A DNA stretch of 36,232 nucleotides from a virus: positions 1 through 36,232 of the IMG/VR virus record IMGVR_UViG_3300045120_000347. One strand, written 5' to 3'. Positions 9,479 to 31,633 of the stretch are shown here, piece after piece. The position numbers and the translations under genes were made by a program. Under the pieces are notes generated by a model. The model did not search any database, was not told where the DNA came from, and saw nothing but the letters and a program-made list of their open reading frames with translations. The stretch's first letter is position 1; every line of letters starts with the position of its first letter.

Positions 9479-9576
9479 GGGCCGGCCTCGCGCGTCGTGG
9501 CTTTGCGCCATGTGGAGTCCGGCGGCGTATCGGGAATTGCCGCCCATTGTTCGTCGGTGAGGCCGTATTTCGCCAT
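9475..9576 (-). CDS. 33-residue small protein, TGATG-coupled
   Basis: MAKYGLTDEQWAAIPDTPPD continues to TWRKATTREAGP. Start ATG 9574-9576 shares its A with the TGA of the DUF1376 gene. A longer in-frame start at 9618 (MATRISTLKT) is possible but would overlap that gene by 43 bp. Its stop overlaps the next ATG. The coupling on both sides is the main evidence that it is real. Function unknown. Confidence 0.5.
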   Translation of the reverse strand: MAKYGLTDEQWAAIPDTPPDSTWRKATTREAGP

Positions 9577-10268
9577 CACTTTGCTGGGCGTTTTGAGGGT
9601 TGATATCCGGGTGGCCATTCGGTCGGAAAGTACCAGCCGCCCTGTTTGTCGTAGGGCGAGCCCTTGCCTTTGTGCGCCTTTAAGTGTGCCTGCCAAGCGT
9701 CCCACTGCGGCGTATCCATTTTAACTCGCGCACGTTTTTCCTTCCGCGCTTCGCTTTCTTCCTTCAAAACCGAAGGTCCTCCGCTTTCTCGCGCGCGCGC
9801 GCGCGTCTTAATAATACGTGAAGGTGGTTGTAGTCGTTCGCATTCTGTTGGCCTTCCGTTCGCGTGTTGCTTGGGACGGCCCTGCGCAAGTGATTGATGT
9901 TGTTGTTTGATCATAGATGAACGGCCGTTCGTTTTCGGCTGCCATTTTGCTGTTCTGCGCGCCTGCCCTGACGCCTTTCCCGCGGCCTTAGTCTGCGCCA
10001 AAATTCTAGCGGCCTCAGTCAACTCAAACTCGATCCGGCCGTGCTTCCAGCCATCGGTGAAAAATGCTTGGATTGTCGGGCGGACCACGCGCCATTCGTC
10101 TAGTGTCATTTTGGCCACGCGGGCAAGCGCGCCATCGTCGGCGGGCAGGCTGCCGCGCCGCCAATAGTGCATGATCAAATGCAGATAGGCCCCACTCTCG
10201 GCCGCACGCAGGTGCGCCGTATCAGCGAGGTAGTCGGCGATGTAGAGCGGCATCCACGGGCGGCTCAT
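9576..10268 (-). CDS. DUF1376 replication-module protein
   Basis: 230 residues from ATG 10266-10268, set by an ATGA overlap with the HNH gene upstream. The N-terminal about 90 residues (RPWMPLYIADYLADTAHL, AAESGAYLHLIMHYWRRG, LPADDGALARVAKM) are the DUF1376 domain found in phage replication-initiation proteins, with winged-helix character. A low-complexity basic linker follows, containing the RARARE segment encoded by (CG)8. A C-terminal motif, QWDAWQAHLKAHKGKG...YFPTEWPP, is common in this family. It probably binds the phage origin or helps load helicase; inferred from family context. Confidence 0.8.
   Translation of the reverse strand: MSRPWMPLYIADYLADTAHLRAAESGAYLHLIMHYWRRGSLPADDGALARVAKMTLDEWRVVRPTIQAFFTDGWKHGRIEFELTEAARILAQTKAAGKASGQARRTAKWQPKTNGRSSMIKQQHQSLAQGRPKQHANGRPTECERLQPPSRIIKTRARARESGGPSVLKEESEARKEKRARVKMDTPQWDAWQAHLKAHKGKGSPYDKQGGWYFPTEWPPGYQPSKRPAK
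9790..9805. repeat. (CG)8 dinucleotide repeat inside DUF1376 gene
   Basis: Sixteen bases of perfect CG alternation within the coding linker (Arg-Ala repeats). Such a tract can slip during replication and could also adopt Z-DNA. A one-unit change would shift the frame of the C-terminal half of the DUF1376 protein. Confidence 0.85.
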
Positions 10269-10807
10269 GACGTTGCCCCCTTGATCTTGCGCCAGCAAAC
10301 GCCGCAGAAATATCGAAAGGCGGGACCGCGGCTGTACATTTTCCGCGTCGCAATTTCCATCGCTTCAAGCACTTCAAAATAATCGAGGCGGTCTAGAAAT
10401 GTGCGGATACTTGCAAGGCGCGAACGTAGAATGCTGTCGTCGCCAAAACGCTCCATGTAGACATCGGCAATCGACCATAGCTCATCGTCTCTGCGGTGCT
10501 TCTTCGCCTGGAGGATTTCATAATAGGCGCGCAATTGCGCTTCGCGCTCAAGAGTCTCCGCCGCCTTATCGGAAAGCGACTGAGGCATGTTCGAAAGAAG
10601 CCCGTCGCTTTTGCCACGGTTGCATTCGAAGCAGGCCGTTACGAGGTTGTCCGCGTCGTTCTCGCCACCCTCAGCGACGGGATGGACGTGATCCACCTCC
10701 AGTAGTGCGTCCGGCGGGTGTGCGCCGCAATAGACGCACTGAAACTCATCGCGTTTGAAGGTGTTGAAGCGCAGCCGCTTGCTGATCGGCGTCCGGGGTA
10801 GGCTCAT
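10265..10807 (-). CDS. HNH nuclease of the replication module
   Basis: 180 residues from ATG 10805-10807 (ATGA overlap with the VRR-NUC gene). A complete HNH domain with zinc knuckles occupies residues about 15-65: CVYCGAHPPDALLEVDHVHP, EGGENDADNLVTACFECNRG. The CxxC pairs and the DH/N/H catalytic set are intact. The remaining helical region ends in FRYFCGVCWRKIKG, another CxxC. Likely a DNA-nicking or structure-specific nuclease in replication or recombination. It could equally be a free-standing mobile HNH, but its tight coupling favours a housekeeping phage role. Confidence 0.85.
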   Translation of the reverse strand: MSLPRTPISKRLRFNTFKRDEFQCVYCGAHPPDALLEVDHVHPVAEGGENDADNLVTACFECNRGKSDGLLSNMPQSLSDKAAETLEREAQLRAYYEILQAKKHRRDDELWSIADVYMERFGDDSILRSRLASIRTFLDRLDYFEVLEAMEIATRKMYSRGPAFRYFCGVCWRKIKGATS

Positions 10808-12095: not shown

Positions 12096-13022
12096 TTACG
12101 CTTGGTTCCTCCATGGCAGAGCAACGAAACCGATATCCGCGAACACACTCGCGAACCGGGCAGTCTTGGAACCAAAATAGAAAAATGCCTGCCCTTGTGT
12201 CGGCGCAGCTATCTCGCCATCGGGCTCATAGAATTTTATCCGGCCGCGCGTAAAACAAATCGAATCGGCAATCGCTGCTGCTTCGTGAAACCAAGACGTA
12301 TCGGTGTAATTGTGGGTAAGCATGACGCCGGCAGTAACGCGCCCAGCCTTGCGCTCGCTCACCATCTTAGAGACGAAGTCGGCGATCAGCGGCTGCGCAT
12401 AAGGCGGATTGAGCCATACGCGCCCACGCCATTCCTGCTTCAAGCCGTCGTCGGCCTTGGTGAAGTAGCGATCCGCGTCGATGATCTCTTGCGCTTTGTC
12501 GCTGCTGGCCGGATCAAGGTCGATCCCGCCGAGCACGCTGCGCGCCAGCGCCACATATTCGGCCGGCGTGAACCACTCATTTTCGCCAGTACCGGTCGTG
12601 CCGCGAATCTTATCCTTGAGAGCCCACATCGGTGCATGGGCGGACTCGTGAAGTATTTCTCGATAGGCCGGCTCATCTTCGAGCCGCGTGAGCCATCGGT
12701 TGACCTGTTGTTTGCTGATGCCGGTTTGCTTCGTGGCCGCGGCGGCAGAAATCACGGTCGCCGAATTGGGACCGTGATTCTTGGATTTCCGATCACCCCC
12801 TTTGCCCCCTGGGGTGACATTGCCATTCCAAAACGCGATGAACTTGCGCTGCTCGGCAATGACCTCGTCAATGGCTCTGTCGAGAGCTTCCCAATCCTTG
12901 ATTTTGCGGGCATGCCCAACCGCACCTTTGAGCGCGCCGAGCTTCATGCGCGTCTGCGTCGGGTTGAATTCCGCGACGGCCTTCGATTTTTCCAGCTCTG
13001 GCTTCGCTACGGCTGTACCCAT
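12096..13022 (-). CDS. dam: DNA N6-adenine methyltransferase (Dam-type phage family)
   Basis: 308 residues. N-terminal half (about 20-140): helical, with a region like ParB/methyltransferase-associated HTHs (TKQTGISKQQVNRWLTRLED, about 97-116). C-terminal half: ENEWFTPAEYVALARSV, then GGIDLDPASS (about 166-174) as SAM-binding motif and VWLNPPYAQP with catalytic NPPY (205-208). This order is the phage N-6-adenine-methyltransferase family. It would methylate adenine in phage or host DNA, protecting against restriction or marking DNA for replication or packaging. The start at 13022 follows a GGGGGCGG ribosome-binding site. Confidence 0.9.
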   Translation of the reverse strand: MGTAVAKPELEKSKAVAEFNPTQTRMKLGALKGAVGHARKIKDWEALDRAIDEVIAEQRKFIAFWNGNVTPGGKGGDRKSKNHGPNSATVISAAAATKQTGISKQQVNRWLTRLEDEPAYREILHESAHAPMWALKDKIRGTTGTGENEWFTPAEYVALARSVLGGIDLDPASSDKAQEIIDADRYFTKADDGLKQEWRGRVWLNPPYAQPLIADFVSKMVSERKAGRVTAGVMLTHNYTDTSWFHEAAAIADSICFTRGRIKFYEPDGEIAAPTQGQAFFYFGSKTARFASVFADIGFVALPWRNQA

Positions 13023-13034
13023 CAGCCGCCCCCA

Positions 13035-13547
13035 TCATCGTTTTCGAGCCAAGGGGCGATGCATATTGCGGCGGATCGCGCCCAGCGCATCAGTCTGAGG
13101 GCGATGAAAGTCCTCATCGCAAACGCCCAGGGCAGTTTCCGCTCGGGCCAGCGTGTCCCCCAACCGCTCGGCTTCATTGATGGCCTCTTGCAGTTGCTGC
13201 CGGTGGCGGCGCATGGCGCCGAGCTTGAATGCGGATCGGACCTGCACCCACCATCGCGGGCTGACGTCGGCCATGATGGCGGCGAGGAAGTCGAGGCCAT
13301 GCTCGGAGCGCAGAAGCGTGGCTAATTCGCTGGCGCTGAAATCACGTTCTCCGCTCATGCGATACTTGGCGGTGCGCTCAGAAAGGCCGGTCAACTCAAT
13401 CAATCGTAGCCACGTCTTGCGCGGGAAAATGGCACGCAAACATTGGGCTATCGTGGAATTCAGGTGCCGCGATGTGCCCAGAACGGTGCACGTTTCGCCA
13501 CTCCCCTGATTTGCTGGAACGGCAGCGGTCCGCAATGTTGCGCGCAT
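13035..13547 (-). CDS. HTH early regulator, 170 residues
   Basis: Start ATG 13545-13547 preferred: GGCGGAG lies 7 nt ahead and it clears the Cro-like gene by 20 bp. The longer frame would overlap that gene. Residues about 38-82 hold an HTH: AIFPRKTWLRLIELTGLSER, then TAKYRMSGERDFSASELATL, where the second helix is unusually followed by a short linker. The rest is helical and basic. As the second gene of the leftward early operon it occupies the place of lambda cII/O. An activator or replication regulator is plausible; no family assigned. Confidence 0.65.
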   Translation of the reverse strand: MRATLRTAAVPANQGSGETCTVLGTSRHLNSTIAQCLRAIFPRKTWLRLIELTGLSERTAKYRMSGERDFSASELATLLRSEHGLDFLAAIMADVSPRWWVQVRSAFKLGAMRRHRQQLQEAINEAERLGDTLARAETALGVCDEDFHRPQTDALGAIRRNMHRPLARKR

Positions 13548-13567
13548 GGAGATTCTCCGCCCCGCGC

Positions 13568-13807
13568 TTAGGATGTTGCCGCTACGCAAGCGCGCATCAA
13601 CCGCGCAAGATCGGGTCGCAACTCGGCCGCCGGAATGCCAGTCTTTGCAACAATCAACGGCAAAACGTCCTCGTCCGGCTTGCGCTCACCCGCCTCCCAT
13701 CGAGACACGGCGGCGGTAGACACGCCCAGCAAGTCAGCGAGTTGACGGCGATTTATCGGCGGATCTTGCCGTTCCCGGTAAGCCCGCAAAGGATGAACAT
13801 ATGCCAT
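13568..13807 (-). CDS. Cro-like XRE-family repressor
   Basis: 79 residues, a single HTH_XRE domain: NRRQLADLLGVSTAAVSRWE (about 19-38) with the canonical AGERKP turn after it and a short C-terminal helix. It is divergent from the CI-like gene and is the first gene of the - strand early operon, the lambda cro position. Its promoter-like -10 (TTATTA in forward orientation, 13813-13818) ends only 5 bp before the ATG, and no Shine-Dalgarno is present, so the mRNA may be leaderless. Which of the two XRE proteins maintains lysogeny is inferred from layout. Confidence 0.8.
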   Translation of the reverse strand: MAYVHPLRAYRERQDPPINRRQLADLLGVSTAAVSRWEAGERKPDEDVLPLIVAKTGIPAAELRPDLARLMRACVAATS

Positions 13808-13901
13808 GCAGCTTATTACCGATTTGGCAATATGGTCGTCAACGAATTTCTTGCCAACTTGGTAGGGGTCTCAGAAGGGTTCGCTGGCCATAATTACCGC
13901 T
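13808..13901. promoter_or_regulatory. OR-like operator/promoter region with three dyads
   Basis: Three 15-bp sites of form TTRCC-N5-GGYAA: 13816-13830 (TTACCGATTTGGCAA), 13851-13865 (TTGCCAACTTGGTAG) and 13894-13908 (TTACCGCTATGGCAA, reaching into the CI-like gene). The first overlaps a - strand promoter: -35 TTGACG (13842-13837), 18 nt, -10 TAATAA (13818-13813). The third overlaps the start of the CI-like gene and the -10 CATAAT (13889-13894). The second is centred about 43 bp upstream of the expected + strand start, where an activator would touch RNA polymerase. This reproduces lambda pR/pRM with OR1-OR3. Confidence 0.75.
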
Positions 13902-14195
13902 ATGGCAAAGAAGCCCCGTCCCAAGCCAGCAGCGCGCCGGGCCGGACCCCTGTTCCTCACCGAATGGATGGAGGAACAAAAGGTCAGTGATATTGAGTTG
14001 GCCAAGCGTCTCGGAGTTTCTCCCGTCACTGTCTGGCGTTGGCAAAAGTCTTCGACCCGTCTCAATCCATTGAAACAGGCGCAAGTGGGCCTGGCATTAG
14101 GAATTTGGCCAGGCGCGCTATGGATGCATCCGGCCTCAAAGGCGATGCGGATGATTCGGCTAGTTCTTGAAGATGAAACCTCGTCTGATAAATAA
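13902..14195 (+). CDS. CI-like small XRE repressor
   Basis: 97 residues: a basic N-terminus (AKKPRPKPAARRAG), then an HTH_XRE domain in residues about 22-65 (SDIELAKRLGVSPVTVWRWQ) and a short C-terminal helix. There is no LexA/CI peptidase domain, so RecA-stimulated autocleavage is not expected. Induction would need another route, such as an antirepressor. No Shine-Dalgarno precedes the ATG. The -10-like CATAAT lies 7 bp upstream, so transcription probably starts at or within the codon, as for lambda cI from pRM. Flanked by operators on both sides, it is the best lysogenic repressor candidate. Confidence 0.75.
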   Translation: MAKKPRPKPAARRAGPLFLTEWMEEQKVSDIELAKRLGVSPVTVWRWQKSSTRLNPLKQAQVGLALGIWPGALWMHPASKAMRMIRLVLEDETSSDK

Positions 14196-14279
14196 TCTTA
14201 CCGATTTGGCAATTTAATTCTTGACGGCTTATTACCGATTTGGCAATAAGACTCCCTGTTTTGCTCGGAGCCGCCGCCC
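14196..14279 (+). promoter_or_regulatory. OL-like region: two operators over a rightward early promoter
   Basis: Two exact copies of TTACCGATTTGGCAA, at 14198-14212 and 14232-14246, identical to the first OR-like site. The second overlaps a promoter: -35 TTGACG (14221-14226) and -10 AATAAG (14245-14250) 18 nt later. The same TTGACG hexamer serves the divergent promoter. It drives the gene at 14280 and probably the recombination/integration operon, like lambda pL. A CGGAG ribosome-binding site lies 10-11 nt before the ATG at 14280. Confidence 0.75.
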
Positions 14280-14537
14280 ATGCCTGCCGCCGCCGCCAAG
14301 CCGCGATATCTCGACGGCTTCTCGATGCGTCTACTGATCGTGCACGAACTCACGCGCGCCGGCGCCCCGCTCACGTCGCGGCAACTGGCCGATCGGCTCG
14401 ACGCCAAACTGAGCACCGTCACGTCGATCTGCTCAAAGCTCGCCAGCTATGGCCGGCTCGGCAAGGAGATCCGATCTGCGGCCTGCCGTACCTGCGGCAG
14501 CCCTCACACGTTCTATCTGTGGAGTCTGCCGACATGA
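14280..14537 (+). CDS. Winged-helix DNA-binding protein, first gene after the pL-like promoter
   Basis: 85 residues. Residues about 15-75 form a winged helix: MRLLIVHELTRAGAPLTSRQ, LADRLDAKLSTVTSICSKLA, followed by SYGRLGKEI as wing. A possible zinc pair (ACRTCGSPH) sits near the C-terminus. Its stop overlaps the next ATG (ATGA). As the first gene of the OL-controlled operon it occupies the place of lambda N, so it could regulate downstream transcription. Function not demonstrated. Confidence 0.65.
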   Translation: MPAAAAKPRYLDGFSMRLLIVHELTRAGAPLTSRQLADRLDAKLSTVTSICSKLASYGRLGKEIRSAACRTCGSPHTFYLWSLPT

Positions 14538-14719
14538 TCGTCGATGCCCAGCCTATGACCGAGCGTGAGATCGAGGTCCAGGTCGAGCGGATGCTGACGC
14601 ATCTCAACCGACTGCTGCTCAACGGCGACATGAGCGCGGAGGACAACCACGCAGCACTGCGCGACCTGGCCGAGTGGGAAGAAGCGGCCATGCTGAAGGC
14701 CAAGGGCGAGGCCGAGTGA
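14534..14719 (+). CDS. Hypothetical 61-residue helical protein
   Basis: MIVDAQPMTEREIEVQVERM, then LLLNGDMSAEDNHAALRDLA and EWEEAAMLKAKGEAE: an acidic, all-helical small protein. Coupled at both ends (ATGA with the winged-helix gene, TGATG with the exonuclease gene). Adjacent to the recombination pair, it could be a nuclease inhibitor or accessory factor, but no family is recognised. Confidence 0.65.
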   Translation: MIVDAQPMTEREIEVQVERMLTHLNRLLLNGDMSAEDNHAALRDLAEWEEAAMLKAKGEAE

Positions 14720-15501
14720 TGTTGAGCCCCAGCCAGATCGAGGCGCGCAAGGGCAAGCTGACGGGATCGCGCGTGGCCGCCTTGATGACCGGCGATGCCG
14801 AGAAGATTCTGCGGCTGTATCGCGAAATGATCGGTGAGGCGCCGGAAGTCGACCTCTCCGACGTTTGGCCAGTGCGGCTCGGCGAGGCCACCGAGCAGCT
14901 CAATCTCGATTGGTACGAGATGCGGCGCAATCCGCTGTCGCGGCGCGGCGAGGTCGTCATACACCCGCACTACGATTGGGCGGCGTGTACGCTCGACGCC
15001 TGGGACGACACGTTGTGCTGCCCGGTCGAAGCCAAGCACGTCGGCGGGCGCGAGCCGCTCGAAACCGTCATCGACCGTTACGCCGCACAACTGCAATGGG
15101 AGATGGAAGTCACCACCGCCGACCAATGCGCCATCTCGATCATCGTGGCGGCCGCCCCGCCAGTGGTCGAGTATGTCCCGCGCGATCCCGACTATGCCGC
15201 CGAGATGATTCATCGCGGCGCGCAATTCATGGAATGCGTGGCGCGGCGGATCATGCCAGTGCATCTCGCCCCCGTCGCCGCGCCAGTCGTCGTTTCGAAG
15301 ACCTACGACATGTCCGGCGACAATCGATGGGCAGCGGCGGCAGCCGCTTGGCTCACGACCAAGGTCGCCGCGCGCGATCACGCCGAGGCCGAAGCAGATT
15401 TGAAAGCGATCATGCCAGACGATGCGCGACGATGCGTTGGCTACGGCGTCGTCATAAATCGCGACCGCGCCGGCCGGTTATCGTTACGGGAAATGAAATG
15501 A
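14719..15501 (+). CDS. YqaJ-family (lambda-exonuclease-like) viral recombinase
   Basis: 260 residues from ATG 14719-14721 (TGATG overlap). Layout matches the YqaJ/lambda-Exo PD-(D/E)XK fold: GKLTGSRVAALMTGD (about 12-26), GEATEQLNLDWYEM with metal-site Glu, the segment ending AACTLDAW (Asp), PVEAKHVGG (Glu-x-Lys), then YAAQLQWEMEVT (Gln-rich helix). It would resect dsDNA 5' ends to give 3' single strands for the annealing protein encoded just downstream. Transcription is probably from the OL-type promoter. A pentamer repeat array begins at its stop codon. Confidence 0.9.
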   Translation: MLSPSQIEARKGKLTGSRVAALMTGDAEKILRLYREMIGEAPEVDLSDVWPVRLGEATEQLNLDWYEMRRNPLSRRGEVVIHPHYDWAACTLDAWDDTLCCPVEAKHVGGREPLETVIDRYAAQLQWEMEVTTADQCAISIIVAAAPPVVEYVPRDPDYAAEMIHRGAQFMECVARRIMPVHLAPVAAPVVVSKTYDMSGDNRWAAAAAAWLTTKVAARDHAEAEADLKAIMPDDARRCVGYGVVINRDRAGRLSLREMK

Positions 15502-16415: not shown

Positions 16416-16455
16416 TCACCGAAACTACCCACCACCAGAGAAGGACTTGATACCC

Positions 16456-17217
16456 ATGAGAAAACTACTCGCTACCACCGCCCTGGTACTCGCCATGGCG
16501 GCCCCTGCGCAGGCCGATGTCATCCTCGGCGGCCAGAACTGGACTTTCTCCGGCGCCGACAATCTGACATTCCAATCAGTGGTTCCAGGCGGCAACCAGC
16601 CGCAGAACATCCAGTGCATCATCTGCGGCGAGAACCAGCCGCAGCAGCAAGCGAACTTCGGTTACACCGACTTTAAGAACAGCGGAAGCCTCACCGGCAT
16701 CAACATGTTCTCGACCAACGTGTCAGGCGGCGCCAACCCCGGCGACAATGTCATCGGGCTTGGCTACGACGGCGCGTTCCTGCGGGCCTATTTGGTTGCC
16801 AAGGGCGATACCAACTTGCAGTTTTCCGTTGGCATCGACATCAATGACAGCAATCAAACCCAGACGCTGAACTCGTTCTTCATGTTGAACTTGACGCAGC
16901 ACACGGTGTTGGCGGCATTCCGCCCCGCAGGCGGGCAATTGGTGCCGGACGTCAACAACGGCACGGGCTTCCCCGACTACACATTGAGTGGATTCAACAT
17001 CAACATCGGTACTGATATTCAGGCTGGCGACCAGATCATCTTCTTCGCCCGCATGAGCAACATGAACGACGGCCCGGACTCGTTCTTTATCGAGCCGATC
17101 GTGACGGCTGTCCCCGGCCCGGTGGTCGGTGCCGGCTTCCCCGGAATCGTCGCGGGCTGCATCGGCCTCTGGGGTCTCGCCATGAAGCGGCGGCGCCGTC
17201 AGGGGTTGATAGCCTAA
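16456..17217 (+). CDS. Secreted surface protein with PEP-CTERM-like sorting signal
   Basis: 253 residues. ATG 16456 has an AGAAGGA site 11 nt upstream; the TTG at 16447 is less likely. N-terminal signal peptide MRKLLATTALVLAMAAPAQA. Middle (about 25-215): beta-rich, including QCIICGENQPQQQANFGYTD and FFARMSNMNDGPDSFF. C-terminus: VPGPVVGAGFPGIVAGCIG, a hydrophobic helix, then KRRRRQG, the tripartite PEP-CTERM layout (motif, membrane helix, Arg cluster) in the variant common in Bradyrhizobium. Such proteins are exported and processed by exosortase at the envelope. In a phage this looks like a lysogenic-conversion gene. Hairpins follow. Confidence 0.8.
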   Translation: MRKLLATTALVLAMAAPAQADVILGGQNWTFSGADNLTFQSVVPGGNQPQNIQCIICGENQPQQQANFGYTDFKNSGSLTGINMFSTNVSGGANPGDNVIGLGYDGAFLRAYLVAKGDTNLQFSVGIDINDSNQTQTLNSFFMLNLTQHTVLAAFRPAGGQLVPDVNNGTGFPDYTLSGFNINIGTDIQAGDQIIFFARMSNMNDGPDSFFIEPIVTAVPGPVVGAGFPGIVAGCIGLWGLAMKRRRRQGLIA

Positions 17218-18831: not shown

Positions 18832-19054
18832 GGCGGAATCTGGTCCTGTGACGGTAAAAGCACCAGCAAGCCAAATGAGCATCCGGCGGTCGATCGCCGC
18901 CGCTCGCAAGGAAGGGCTGCATGTGCTGGCCATCCGGCCGGACGGCACGGTGGTGGTCGGCAAGCAGCCGATCGAAACCACGGACGTGATCCCGACCGCG
19001 CCGCCACAGACCGAGGACGAGGCCGAGCGCGAATTCTGGGAGAAGGTAAAATGA
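18770..19054 (+). CDS. Small basic protein preceding integrase (possible excisionase/DNA-binding)
   Basis: 94 residues from ATG 18770, with GGTGGAG upstream. Core: SIRRSIAAARKEGLHVLAIR and PDGTVVVGKQPIE, a pattern seen in small proteins encoded just before integrases in rhizobial prophages. Its stop overlaps the integrase ATG (ATGA), so the two are co-translated. An excisionase-like (Xis) or accessory DNA-bending role is inferred only from position; no HTH is obvious. Confidence 0.6.
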   Translation: MVNEEMRSPRPGFPVPAKSSKAESGPVTVKAPASQMSIRRSIAAARKEGLHVLAIRPDGTVVVGKQPIETTDVIPTAPPQTEDEAEREFWEKVK

Positions 19055-20127
19055 AGGTGCGGCTGAAATATCTTTCCATCGAACGTACCCGGCACGGCAA
19101 AGAAGTCGCCTACGTCATCGCCGGGGTAGGCAAGCGCCGCCGGATTCGTATTCGCGAGCCGTTCGGCGCCCCCGGCTTCATGCAGACCTACGAGGCCGCC
19201 GTCGCCGAGCTCGGGCAGCCGCTGGGCAAGTCCACCGAGATCCGCAAGGGCGCGCTGCGCTGGCTCGCGGGCCAGTATTTTGTCTCGCCCGTCTTCCGCA
19301 ATCTCGACATCAAGTCGCAGGGCGTGCGGATGTCGACGATCGAGAGTTGCCTGCGCGAGGTTGCCGTCGCCGGTAGCTCGCGGCTCATGGCCGAGTGCCC
19401 GTTGACGCTGTTCGGCCCGAACCAGGTCAGGCTGCTGCGCGATCGCCGAGCGGCGCAGCCGGGTGCCGCCAACAATCGAATGAAATATCTATCCGCCATG
19501 TTCGGATGGGGTCTCGAAAATCTGCCGGACGCGGTCGCCTCGAACCCGGTGCGCGATGTCCAAAAGCTGAAATACGAGTCGCACGGCTTCCGGCCGTGGA
19601 CCGAGACCGACCTTGTAAAATTCGAAGACGCCTATCCGATCGGAACCAAACAACGGCTGGCATTGGGATTGTTGCTATTCACCGGCGCGCGGCGATCCGA
19701 CGTCGTCGGCCTCGGCCCGGCCTGCGTGCGCGACGGCATGATCCGGTTCGTACCGCGCAAGACCAAACGCATTCGCAATCAAGCCACCCCGAAGCCGTTC
19801 CTGCCCGAGCTTGCCCGCATCGTTGCGGCGACCAAGCTGCAGGGCCGCGACACGTTCCTGGTGACCGACTACGGCAAGCCGTTCAGCGTGGCCGGGTTCG
19901 GTAGTTGGTTCGCCGACCAATGCCGCCGGATCGGCCTCGACGACTGTACCGCCCACGGCCTGCGCAAGCTCGGCGCCATGCGGGCGGCGATGGCCGGGGC
20001 CAGCCACTACCAGCTCATGGCGGTCTACGACTGGTCGACCCCAGCGCAGGCGCAGAAGTACATCGAGCTTGCCGAGCGCGGCCGTGGCGCCGCGGCGGCG
20101 ATGCCGTTCCTGGCGCAGCGGGGGTGA
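19051..20127 (+). CDS. int: Tyrosine-family site-specific integrase
   Basis: 358 residues. N-terminal arm/core-binding region (1 to about 170) and C-terminal catalytic domain. Catalytic residues visible: Arg214 in LLLFTGARRSDVVGL, Lys about 237-239 in RKTKR, His302/Arg305 in TAHGLRKLGAM, Trp328 in the usual His/Trp position, and Tyr337 in AQKYIELAERG. It would recombine attP with a host attB to form the prophage. It is co-translated with the small upstream protein and lies in the operon reading away from the OL-type promoter. Confidence 0.95.
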   Translation: MKVRLKYLSIERTRHGKEVAYVIAGVGKRRRIRIREPFGAPGFMQTYEAAVAELGQPLGKSTEIRKGALRWLAGQYFVSPVFRNLDIKSQGVRMSTIESCLREVAVAGSSRLMAECPLTLFGPNQVRLLRDRRAAQPGAANNRMKYLSAMFGWGLENLPDAVASNPVRDVQKLKYESHGFRPWTETDLVKFEDAYPIGTKQRLALGLLLFTGARRSDVVGLGPACVRDGMIRFVPRKTKRIRNQATPKPFLPELARIVAATKLQGRDTFLVTDYGKPFSVAGFGSWFADQCRRIGLDDCTAHGLRKLGAMRAAMAGASHYQLMAVYDWSTPAQAQKYIELAERGRGAAAAMPFLAQRG

Positions 20128-31099: not shown

Positions 31100-31633
31100 T
31101 TATGGCACCACCACCGCTTCGTGGACGGTGAACACGCCGAACGTGCCGTCCACGTCATCCTTCTGCACCTCGGCCTCGATCTCCAGTTTTGAGAAGTCAT
31201 CGGCGTCGGTAATGAAATTGAAGTCGCCGGTCGGATTGATCGAGATGCGGCCGGTGAAATCAACGTGCTGGCCGATGTCGTTGGTGCCGTCGACCTGGAT
31301 GATGCCGGAGATCTCCAGCTTTTTGAACGCCGACACCTGAACACTGCCGTCAACGTCGGGAGCCCCGGCCTCGCCCAGAGTAAAGATGGCGAGGTTTGCC
31401 GGGGTGATCTCATCGAGCGTCATCTTGATGGTCGCGCCGATTTGCGTGATGGCCGTAAAATCTTTTACCTTCACGCCTTCACGGCTGCTGAAGTGCTCCT
31501 TCTTTTCGACCTTCGGCGTCCAGACAAACGACGGCGCGTTGCCGAGGTCGACGAAGGTGCTGCCGCCGTCCTCTTTGAAAGTCACAACTCCCTTACCAAT
31601 ATGGTAATTTTGGACTGAAGGACTTGCGGGCAT
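31100..31633 (-). CDS. Major tail (tube) protein
   Basis: 177 residues, ATG behind GAGGAG 9 nt away. Beta-rich: VQNYHIGKGVVTFKEDGGST, FVWTPKVEKKEHFSSREGVK, TLDEITPANLAIFTLGEAGA, DFTGRISINPTGDFNFITD. The SSREGVK and TLDEITPANLA pieces are typical of HK97/lambda-type tail tube subunits in this phage group. They form the hexameric rings of the tail. It sits between tail terminator and tail chaperones as expected. Confidence 0.85.
   Translation of the reverse strand: MPASPSVQNYHIGKGVVTFKEDGGSTFVDLGNAPSFVWTPKVEKKEHFSSREGVKVKDFTAITQIGATIKMTLDEITPANLAIFTLGEAGAPDVDGSVQVSAFKKLEISGIIQVDGTNDIGQHVDFTGRISINPTGDFNFITDADDFSKLEIEAEVQKDDVDGTFGVFTVHEAVVVP

Follow-up and report, generated by a model that had tools for sequence, protein, structure and literature searches.

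A probable lambda-type immunity region with two small XRE proteins and five operator-like dyads in a viral DNA record

The IMG/VR virus record IMGVR_UViG_3300045120_000347 was analysed over a stretch of 36,232 bp, referred to here as the window. It encodes portal, terminase, capsid/protease, tail, and amidase genes, and in addition a divergent pair of genes for small XRE proteins, at 13568-13807 (minus strand, 79 aa) and 13902-14195 (plus strand, 97 aa), denoted cro and cI in the following. Three dyads lie between these genes and two past the second one. Leftwards, cro is followed by a gene of unassigned function, by those for a Dam methylase and a primosomal protein, and then by structural genes; rightwards, cI is followed by dyads (sites) 4 and 5 and by genes for a winged-helix-like protein, an exonuclease of the YqaJ/RecE type, and an integrase. 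The genes of the region are:

9576-10298, minus strand: primosomal/replication protein (DUF1376) of the leftward operon (phrog_3992, E=7.9e-27; PF07120, E=5.1e-21)
12096-13022, minus strand: DNA adenine methyltransferase (Dam) of the leftward operon (PF05869, E=2.4e-18)
13035-13589, minus strand: second gene of the leftward operon, placed like lambda cII; without family match and of uncertain start
13568-13807, minus strand: cro-like XRE protein, 79 aa (HTH_3, E=3.6e-10), heading the leftward early operon
13902-14195, plus strand: cI-like XRE protein, 97 aa, consisting of an HTH domain and a long helix at the C-terminus (77-94), without a peptidase domain
14280-14537, plus strand: small winged-HTH-like protein, 85 aa, first behind the rightward promoter; Pfam matches weak
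14674-15501, plus strand: YqaJ/RecE-like recombination exonuclease (PF09588, E=3e-10; phrog_434, E=3.7e-32)
19051-20127, plus strand: tyrosine integrase (PF00589, E=2.5e-08; phrog_1, E=1.6e-24)

At 16447-17217 (plus strand), a putative secreted protein can be read from the sequence, with a signal peptide and a PEP-CTERM-like end (VPGP...GLWGLAMKRRRRQ). It has no family match and would be an unusual cargo for a phage.

The dyads share the form TTRCC-N5-GGYAA and are located as follows (unstranded; L005-L011 denote related contigs described below):

13816-13830: operator site 1 (OR1-like), exact consensus, within the spacer of the cro promoter; kept in L005-L010
13851-13865: operator site 2 (OR2-like), matching except at one position in its cI-proximal half; kept in L005-L010
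13894-13908: operator site 3 (OR3-like), exact consensus, includes the cI start codon
14198-14212: operator site 4 (OL-like), exact consensus; kept in L005-L011
14232-14246: operator site 5 (OL-like), exact consensus, in the spacer of the rightward promoter; kept in L005-L011

Exact matches to TTRCCNNNNNGGYAA are found in the window at 13816, 13894, 14198, 14232, and 31593, with only 0.08 exact matches to TTRCC-N5-GGYAA expected. When up to one mismatch is allowed, the two gaps together hold five sites, whereas 20,000 dinucleotide shuffles gave 0.03 on average and never more than 2. The same five sites were recovered by a finder that detects dyads de novo and was not supplied with the motif; the score of 9 was above the best of 70 shuffles (p=0.014). 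An earlier note on this DNA had placed five dyads at these coordinates, had described sites 1, 4, and 5 as identical, and had given the cro-cI gap as 94 bp and both proteins as shorter than 100 residues. On re-checking, all coordinates are correct, the three sequences agree, the gap measures 13808-13901, and the proteins comprise 79 and 97 aa. The single consensus ascribed to all five dyads holds exactly for four of them and with one mismatch for site 2 (TTGCCAACTTGGTAG). Frequent dyads elsewhere in the genome had been named beforehand as a check on the reading; the window contains one extra exact match, and the relatives contain none. This sixth dyad (31593-31607), which the earlier note does not list, is a perfect palindrome in the first codons of a tail-tube gene (NYHIGK) that is absent from the relatives searched. 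It was set aside as a genuine operator because of its place in the tail-tube codons and is probably a coincidental by-product of the codons for Asn-Tyr-His-Ile-Gly-Lys.

All five sites are kept in six related contigs (L005-L010), whose cI proteins are 71-73% identical to that of the window and in which the spacings differ by at most one base. There, site 2 likewise carries one mismatch in its cI-nearer half, site 3 likewise lies over the cI ATG (its position relative to this ATG is identical in L005-L010 and in L057), and the cro orthologues adjoin the same sites. A seventh contig, L011, is cut inside cI and keeps sites 4 and 5. The whole contigs of these seven relatives (27-61 kb) contain no further exact dyads. 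No close DNA relative was detected among deposited phages by megablast, and neither a search of viral contigs with cro alone nor a first contig profile search with a narrow cI alignment returned matches.

A true but more distant relative is the Bradyrhizobium phage ppBjS10J-1 (OP596615.1), whose cI (104 aa, 40% identity over 63 aa) and cro (67 aa) are annotated merely as helix-turn-helix proteins. It resembles the window in its small cI and cro and in its 3+2 dyads, with ERF/YqaJ genes behind them; it differs in the operator sequence (CTACC-N5-GGTAG) and in its site 3, which lies 21 bp before the cI start. By an alignment search, about 90 loci with small cI genes (mini-cI loci) were collected. 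A dyad finder blind to motif and position was applied to 78 of them (cI of 80-126 aa, 70 shuffles each), corresponding to 61 clusters at 80% identity. Significant dyads (p<=0.05) were obtained in 29 of the 61 clusters, where about three are expected by chance, and the same finder yielded none in the other 32. The half-site consensus varies among loci and includes TTACC, CTACC, TTGGC, GTTCG (N7), TTGCA, GTTAC (N7), and TTTAG, among others. Despite related cI proteins, no significant dyads of the 15-bp type were found in the Rhizobium phages RHph_I1_23 and RHph_N2 or in the Sinorhizobium phage PBC5.

Several side observations concern the outer parts of this family. The cI-cro gaps of L115 (RHph_I1_23), L116 (PBC5), L077, L082, and L083 contain, in place of clear 15-bp dyads, TTTCAGTCA-like repeats about 16 bp apart, which possibly represent a second operator type of mini-cI loci; no OL sites were seen in these loci or in L117. 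Two records of 'Synechococcus' phages, L118 (OM868079.1) and PP438432.1, encode a cI of the alphaproteobacterial type (44% identity over 90% of L087), and the stated host may be wrong. One mini-cI locus (L027) lies on a 6.5-kb contig of a MAG labelled Verrucomicrobiota, a label that is likely due to a binning error.

At the family loci with significant dyads, TTGAC peaks 18-19 bp before the site centre, on the minus strand for site 1 and on the plus strand for the downstream sites, which indicates that the operators occupy promoter spacers. In the window, the following promoter elements are predicted:

13837-13842, minus strand: -35 of the cro promoter (TTGACG), at the family-wide TTGAC position
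13889-13894, plus strand: -10 of the putative cI promoter (CATAAT), 7 nt before the cI ATG; kept in L005
14221-14226, plus strand: -35 of the rightward early promoter (TTGACG), preceding site 5

A promoter proposed by a sigma-70 scanner at 13857/13829 was set aside, since the TTGACG at 13837-13842 better matches the family-wide position. With this element, cro transcription would start near 13807, on the first base of the cro ATG, and the cro message is probably leaderless. No recognisable -35 was found upstream of the CATAAT of the cI promoter. If transcription starts at the predicted position, the cI message would also be leaderless, as is the cI transcript from lambda PRM. These assignments are in line with the earlier view that site 1 covers the cro promoter, now placed within the spacer of a TTGAC promoter, and that a second promoter past cI feeds recombination and integration genes: site 5 lies in a TTGAC spacer, with the YqaJ exonuclease and the integrase downstream.

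A conserved element of the geometry is the distance between site 2 and cI. In 14 of the 29 significant clusters, against 2.06 expected, the centre of a dyad lies 42-45 bp upstream of the cI start; random placement gave at most 8 in 20,000 trials and never reached 14. The preference persists when loci are restricted to those below 55% identity (10 of 21). In the window, the centre of site 2 is 44 bp from the cI start, and that of lambda OR2 42 bp. While this distance is constant across the family, the position of site 3 shifts: it lies about 16-24 bp upstream of the cI start in most loci (19 bp for lambda OR3) but overlies the start codon itself in L005, L057, and the window. The earlier statement that site 3 covers the cI start thus applies, the site being centred on the start codon. 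The placement of site 2 near an activating position likewise agrees with lambda, and the activation of the cI promoter assumed with it is a suggestion drawn from this position.

A further peculiarity of site 2 is that its cI-nearer half is the weaker one at 13 of the 16 family loci, or at 10 of the 11 that are independent, and no side preference exists between the operator halves at the other sites. One possible cause is the overlap with the cI promoter. Neighbouring site centres are 35, 43, and 34 bp apart in the window, and in the family such distances fall mainly into three groups (22-23, 32-36, and 43-46 bp) and seldom near 28 or 39 bp. These groups resemble whole helical turns added to the 23-24 bp of lambda; the phasing is suggestive only, since periods of 9-13 bp fit about equally well and 10.5 bp is not singled out.

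Which proteins read the dyads was approached through their recognition helices. Each cI was paired with its own cro, eight recognition-helix residues were compared, and the cro genes had been picked by profile, regardless of any match between the helices. The helices of own pairs are more alike than those of permuted pairs, with z=9.9 for 58 loci and z=8.4 for 34 loci below 55% identity, a likeness reached in none of 20,000 permutations. The excess is confined to this element: neither helix 2 nor the turn shows any, nor do the N-terminal part and the segment after helix 3 (z of -0.5 to 1.4, 34 loci). Matching cI and cro helices are found e.g. in L046 (AMTVSRW in both), L092 (HGAISQ/HGAVSQ), and L093 (TKATISR/TKATLSR). 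Operator similarity in turn follows helix 3, given the rest of the HTH, with partial Mantel r values of 0.53 for cI and 0.41 for cro, neither of which was reached in 5,000 permutations of a test that has known weaknesses. Loci with the same helix also have the same operator, as for KDQISR with GTTGGC (L017, L049) and GAISQ with TTTAG/GTTAG (L090, L092). The window's own cI/cro pair is average in this comparison (rank 20 of 58), and its cI helix is closest to the cro helices of L012-L014, whose operator core is ACC-N5-GGT, as in the window. As the helices match within loci and the operators track both of them, there is strong indirect evidence that cI and cro both bind the dyads.

The AlphaFold model of cro has five HTH helices and a C-terminal helix, and the model of cI (mean pLDDT 82) a five-helix HTH domain followed by the long helix 77-94. 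In a structure search, cI resembles the DNA-binding domains of the lambda and P22 repressors as well as many other XRE proteins; the fold gives no finer classification, because the HTH fold is common to many XRE proteins, and the search is silent on how subunits would touch in a dimer or tetramer. The C-terminal helix of the window's cI may aid dimerisation, by analogy with its counterpart in lambda CI, the last helix of the N-terminal domain, which does so. In lambda CI, E34 and D38 contact sigma. An ungapped reading of the HTH places I31 and K35 of the window's cI at these positions, which makes autoactivation through lambda's contact unlikely in this phage; other contacts are possible.

No S24 peptidase (PF00717) and no M78 peptidase (PF06114, the ImmA-type partner) was detected in the window or in 13 related contigs, which may be fragments. 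Self-cleavage or an ImmA-type protease was set aside as the route to induction on these grounds. The window also has no exact alphaproteobacterial LexA box (GTTC-N7-GTTC) that would point to an antirepressor driven by LexA, though an antirepressor of a new kind may exist. The lack of a self-cleavage domain in both repressors, asserted earlier, is borne out by a cI of 97 aa without S24. The corollary that cooperativity and induction must differ from lambda is fair for induction; for cooperativity it is a hypothesis.

The region, with its computed sites, their conservation and constant geometry, and the joint evolution of the operators with both recognition helices, is very probably the immunity region of a temperate tailed phage, i.e. 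a lysis/lysogeny switch of lambda layout in which both small repressors act on five dyads. The host is probably an alphaproteobacterium. During lysogeny, the five dyads would be occupied by cI (97 aa) as a dimer. At sites 1 and 2 it would shut the leftward promoter (cro, methylase, replication) and at sites 4 and 5 the rightward one (recombination, integrase). Bound to site 2, 44 bp upstream of the cI start, it may assist the polymerase at the cI promoter; binding to site 3 would keep cI synthesis in check. During lytic growth, cro (79 aa) would act on the same dyads and turn off cI. We infer binding, an order of site filling, cI autoactivation, and leaderless cI and cro messages, and cI may bind cooperatively across the helically phased spacings of 34 and 43 bp.

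The details of this mechanism are where the most serious alternative lies; the identity of the region is the same in both. Two mutual repressors may simply share the dyads, without autoactivation or cooperativity of cI, so that site 2 just strengthens the repression of cro and site 3 provides negative autoregulation. This has a good chance of being true, if a somewhat smaller one than of being wrong. It agrees with a cI that has neither a lambda-type acidic patch (I31/K35) nor an oligomerisation domain and with a -10 (CATAAT) near the consensus, whereas the fixed distance of site 2 from the cI start in a family whose site 3 moves, the consistently weaker cI-nearer half of site 2, and the cI promoter without a recognisable -35 all speak against it.

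It is improbable that cI alone binds the dyads and that the cro-like protein regulates something else. The helices of cI and cro match within loci beyond permuted pairs and the operators track both, against which a precedent can be set: a report on phage phi11 describes two divergent repressors, neither of which bound all three homologous operators (PMC3991615). Even harder to credit is an origin of the dyads as host-factor sites or chance repeats unrelated to the phage repressors. The exact match at 31593, outside the switch, would fit such an origin, but it lies in the codons of a tail-tube gene missing from the relatives; in seven relatives the sites are restricted to the switch, and the operator sequence co-varies with the recognition helices of the phage proteins.

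In the usual view, lambda owes its bistability to the C-terminal domain of CI and the cooperativity, looping, and induction that this domain provides. As repressors of about 100 residues keep the whole operator plan here, with the OR2 distance to cI, the mini-cI family lends itself to testing how much of the lambda logic depends on this domain. It is tentatively proposed, as somewhat less likely than not, that there is a large family of lambda-type switches with repressors consisting of little more than the HTH, mostly in alphaproteobacterial phages. Through joint change of the operators and the cI and cro helices it would have diversified into many immunity specificities. Even in the absence of a C-terminal domain it would have kept activation of the OR2 type and cooperativity with helical phasing, by means of the C-terminal helix or of the DNA. 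No description of a small-repressor family with 3+2 operators was found in the open-access literature, in a search that cannot show absence; what would be new here is the family-wide joint evolution and the lambda plan retained without a C-terminal domain. Since operators and both helices co-vary over dozens of independent loci, the family also provides a data set for a protein-DNA code and for the prediction of prophage immunity. In a recent study of rhizobial prophages, operators were not found via identity to those of lambda or 16-3 (PMC12429752), and the present approach of combining dyads and geometry may find them.

Among known systems, switches of the ImmR/ImmA type have an M78 partner metallopeptidase, which was not found for the window. 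The immunity repressor C of phage P2, a dimer of 99 aa without a cleavage domain, acts at one promoter, on a pair of direct repeats with a spacing of 22 bp (PMC4752584); its size is similar to that of the window's cI, and the window differs in its inverted repeats, five sites, and two early promoters. The Gifsy repressors GfoR and GtgR belong to lambda-like switches, remain uncleaved on induction, and are inactivated by LexA-controlled antirepressors (PMC3121763). The window would share the uncleaved type of repressor and has no exact GTTC-N7-GTTC LexA box or known antirepressor. The C repressor of Rhizobium phage 16-3, likewise from an alphaproteobacterial phage, has the operators oL1, oL2, oR1, and oR2 (PMC12429752), i.e. 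two named oR sites compared with three in the window; this likeness concerns the operators.

The nearest model is lambda itself. Both systems have divergent cI and cro genes around three dyads, more dyads past cI over a promoter for recombination and integration, an OR2-type site at almost the same distance from the cI start, and the same fold of the DNA-binding part. The switch region is a mirror image of the lambda immunity region, the 79-aa protein corresponding to cro and the 97-aa protein to cI. The arrangement had been called exactly that of lambda; the mirror-image 3+2 layout, kept in the relatives, upholds this in outline, whereas spacing, site 3 position, and the number of OL sites depart from it. 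The centres of the lambda sites are 24, 23, and 24 bp apart and those of the window wider (35, 43, and 34 bp), lambda OR3 lies 19 bp upstream of the cI start and site 3 on the start codon, and lambda has three OL sites, the window two. The window further differs in its operator sequence and has neither rex genes nor a C-terminal oligomerisation/self-cleavage domain. Judged by its protein sequence, the window's cI is outside the S24 CI family; by its layout the region is a lambda-type switch.
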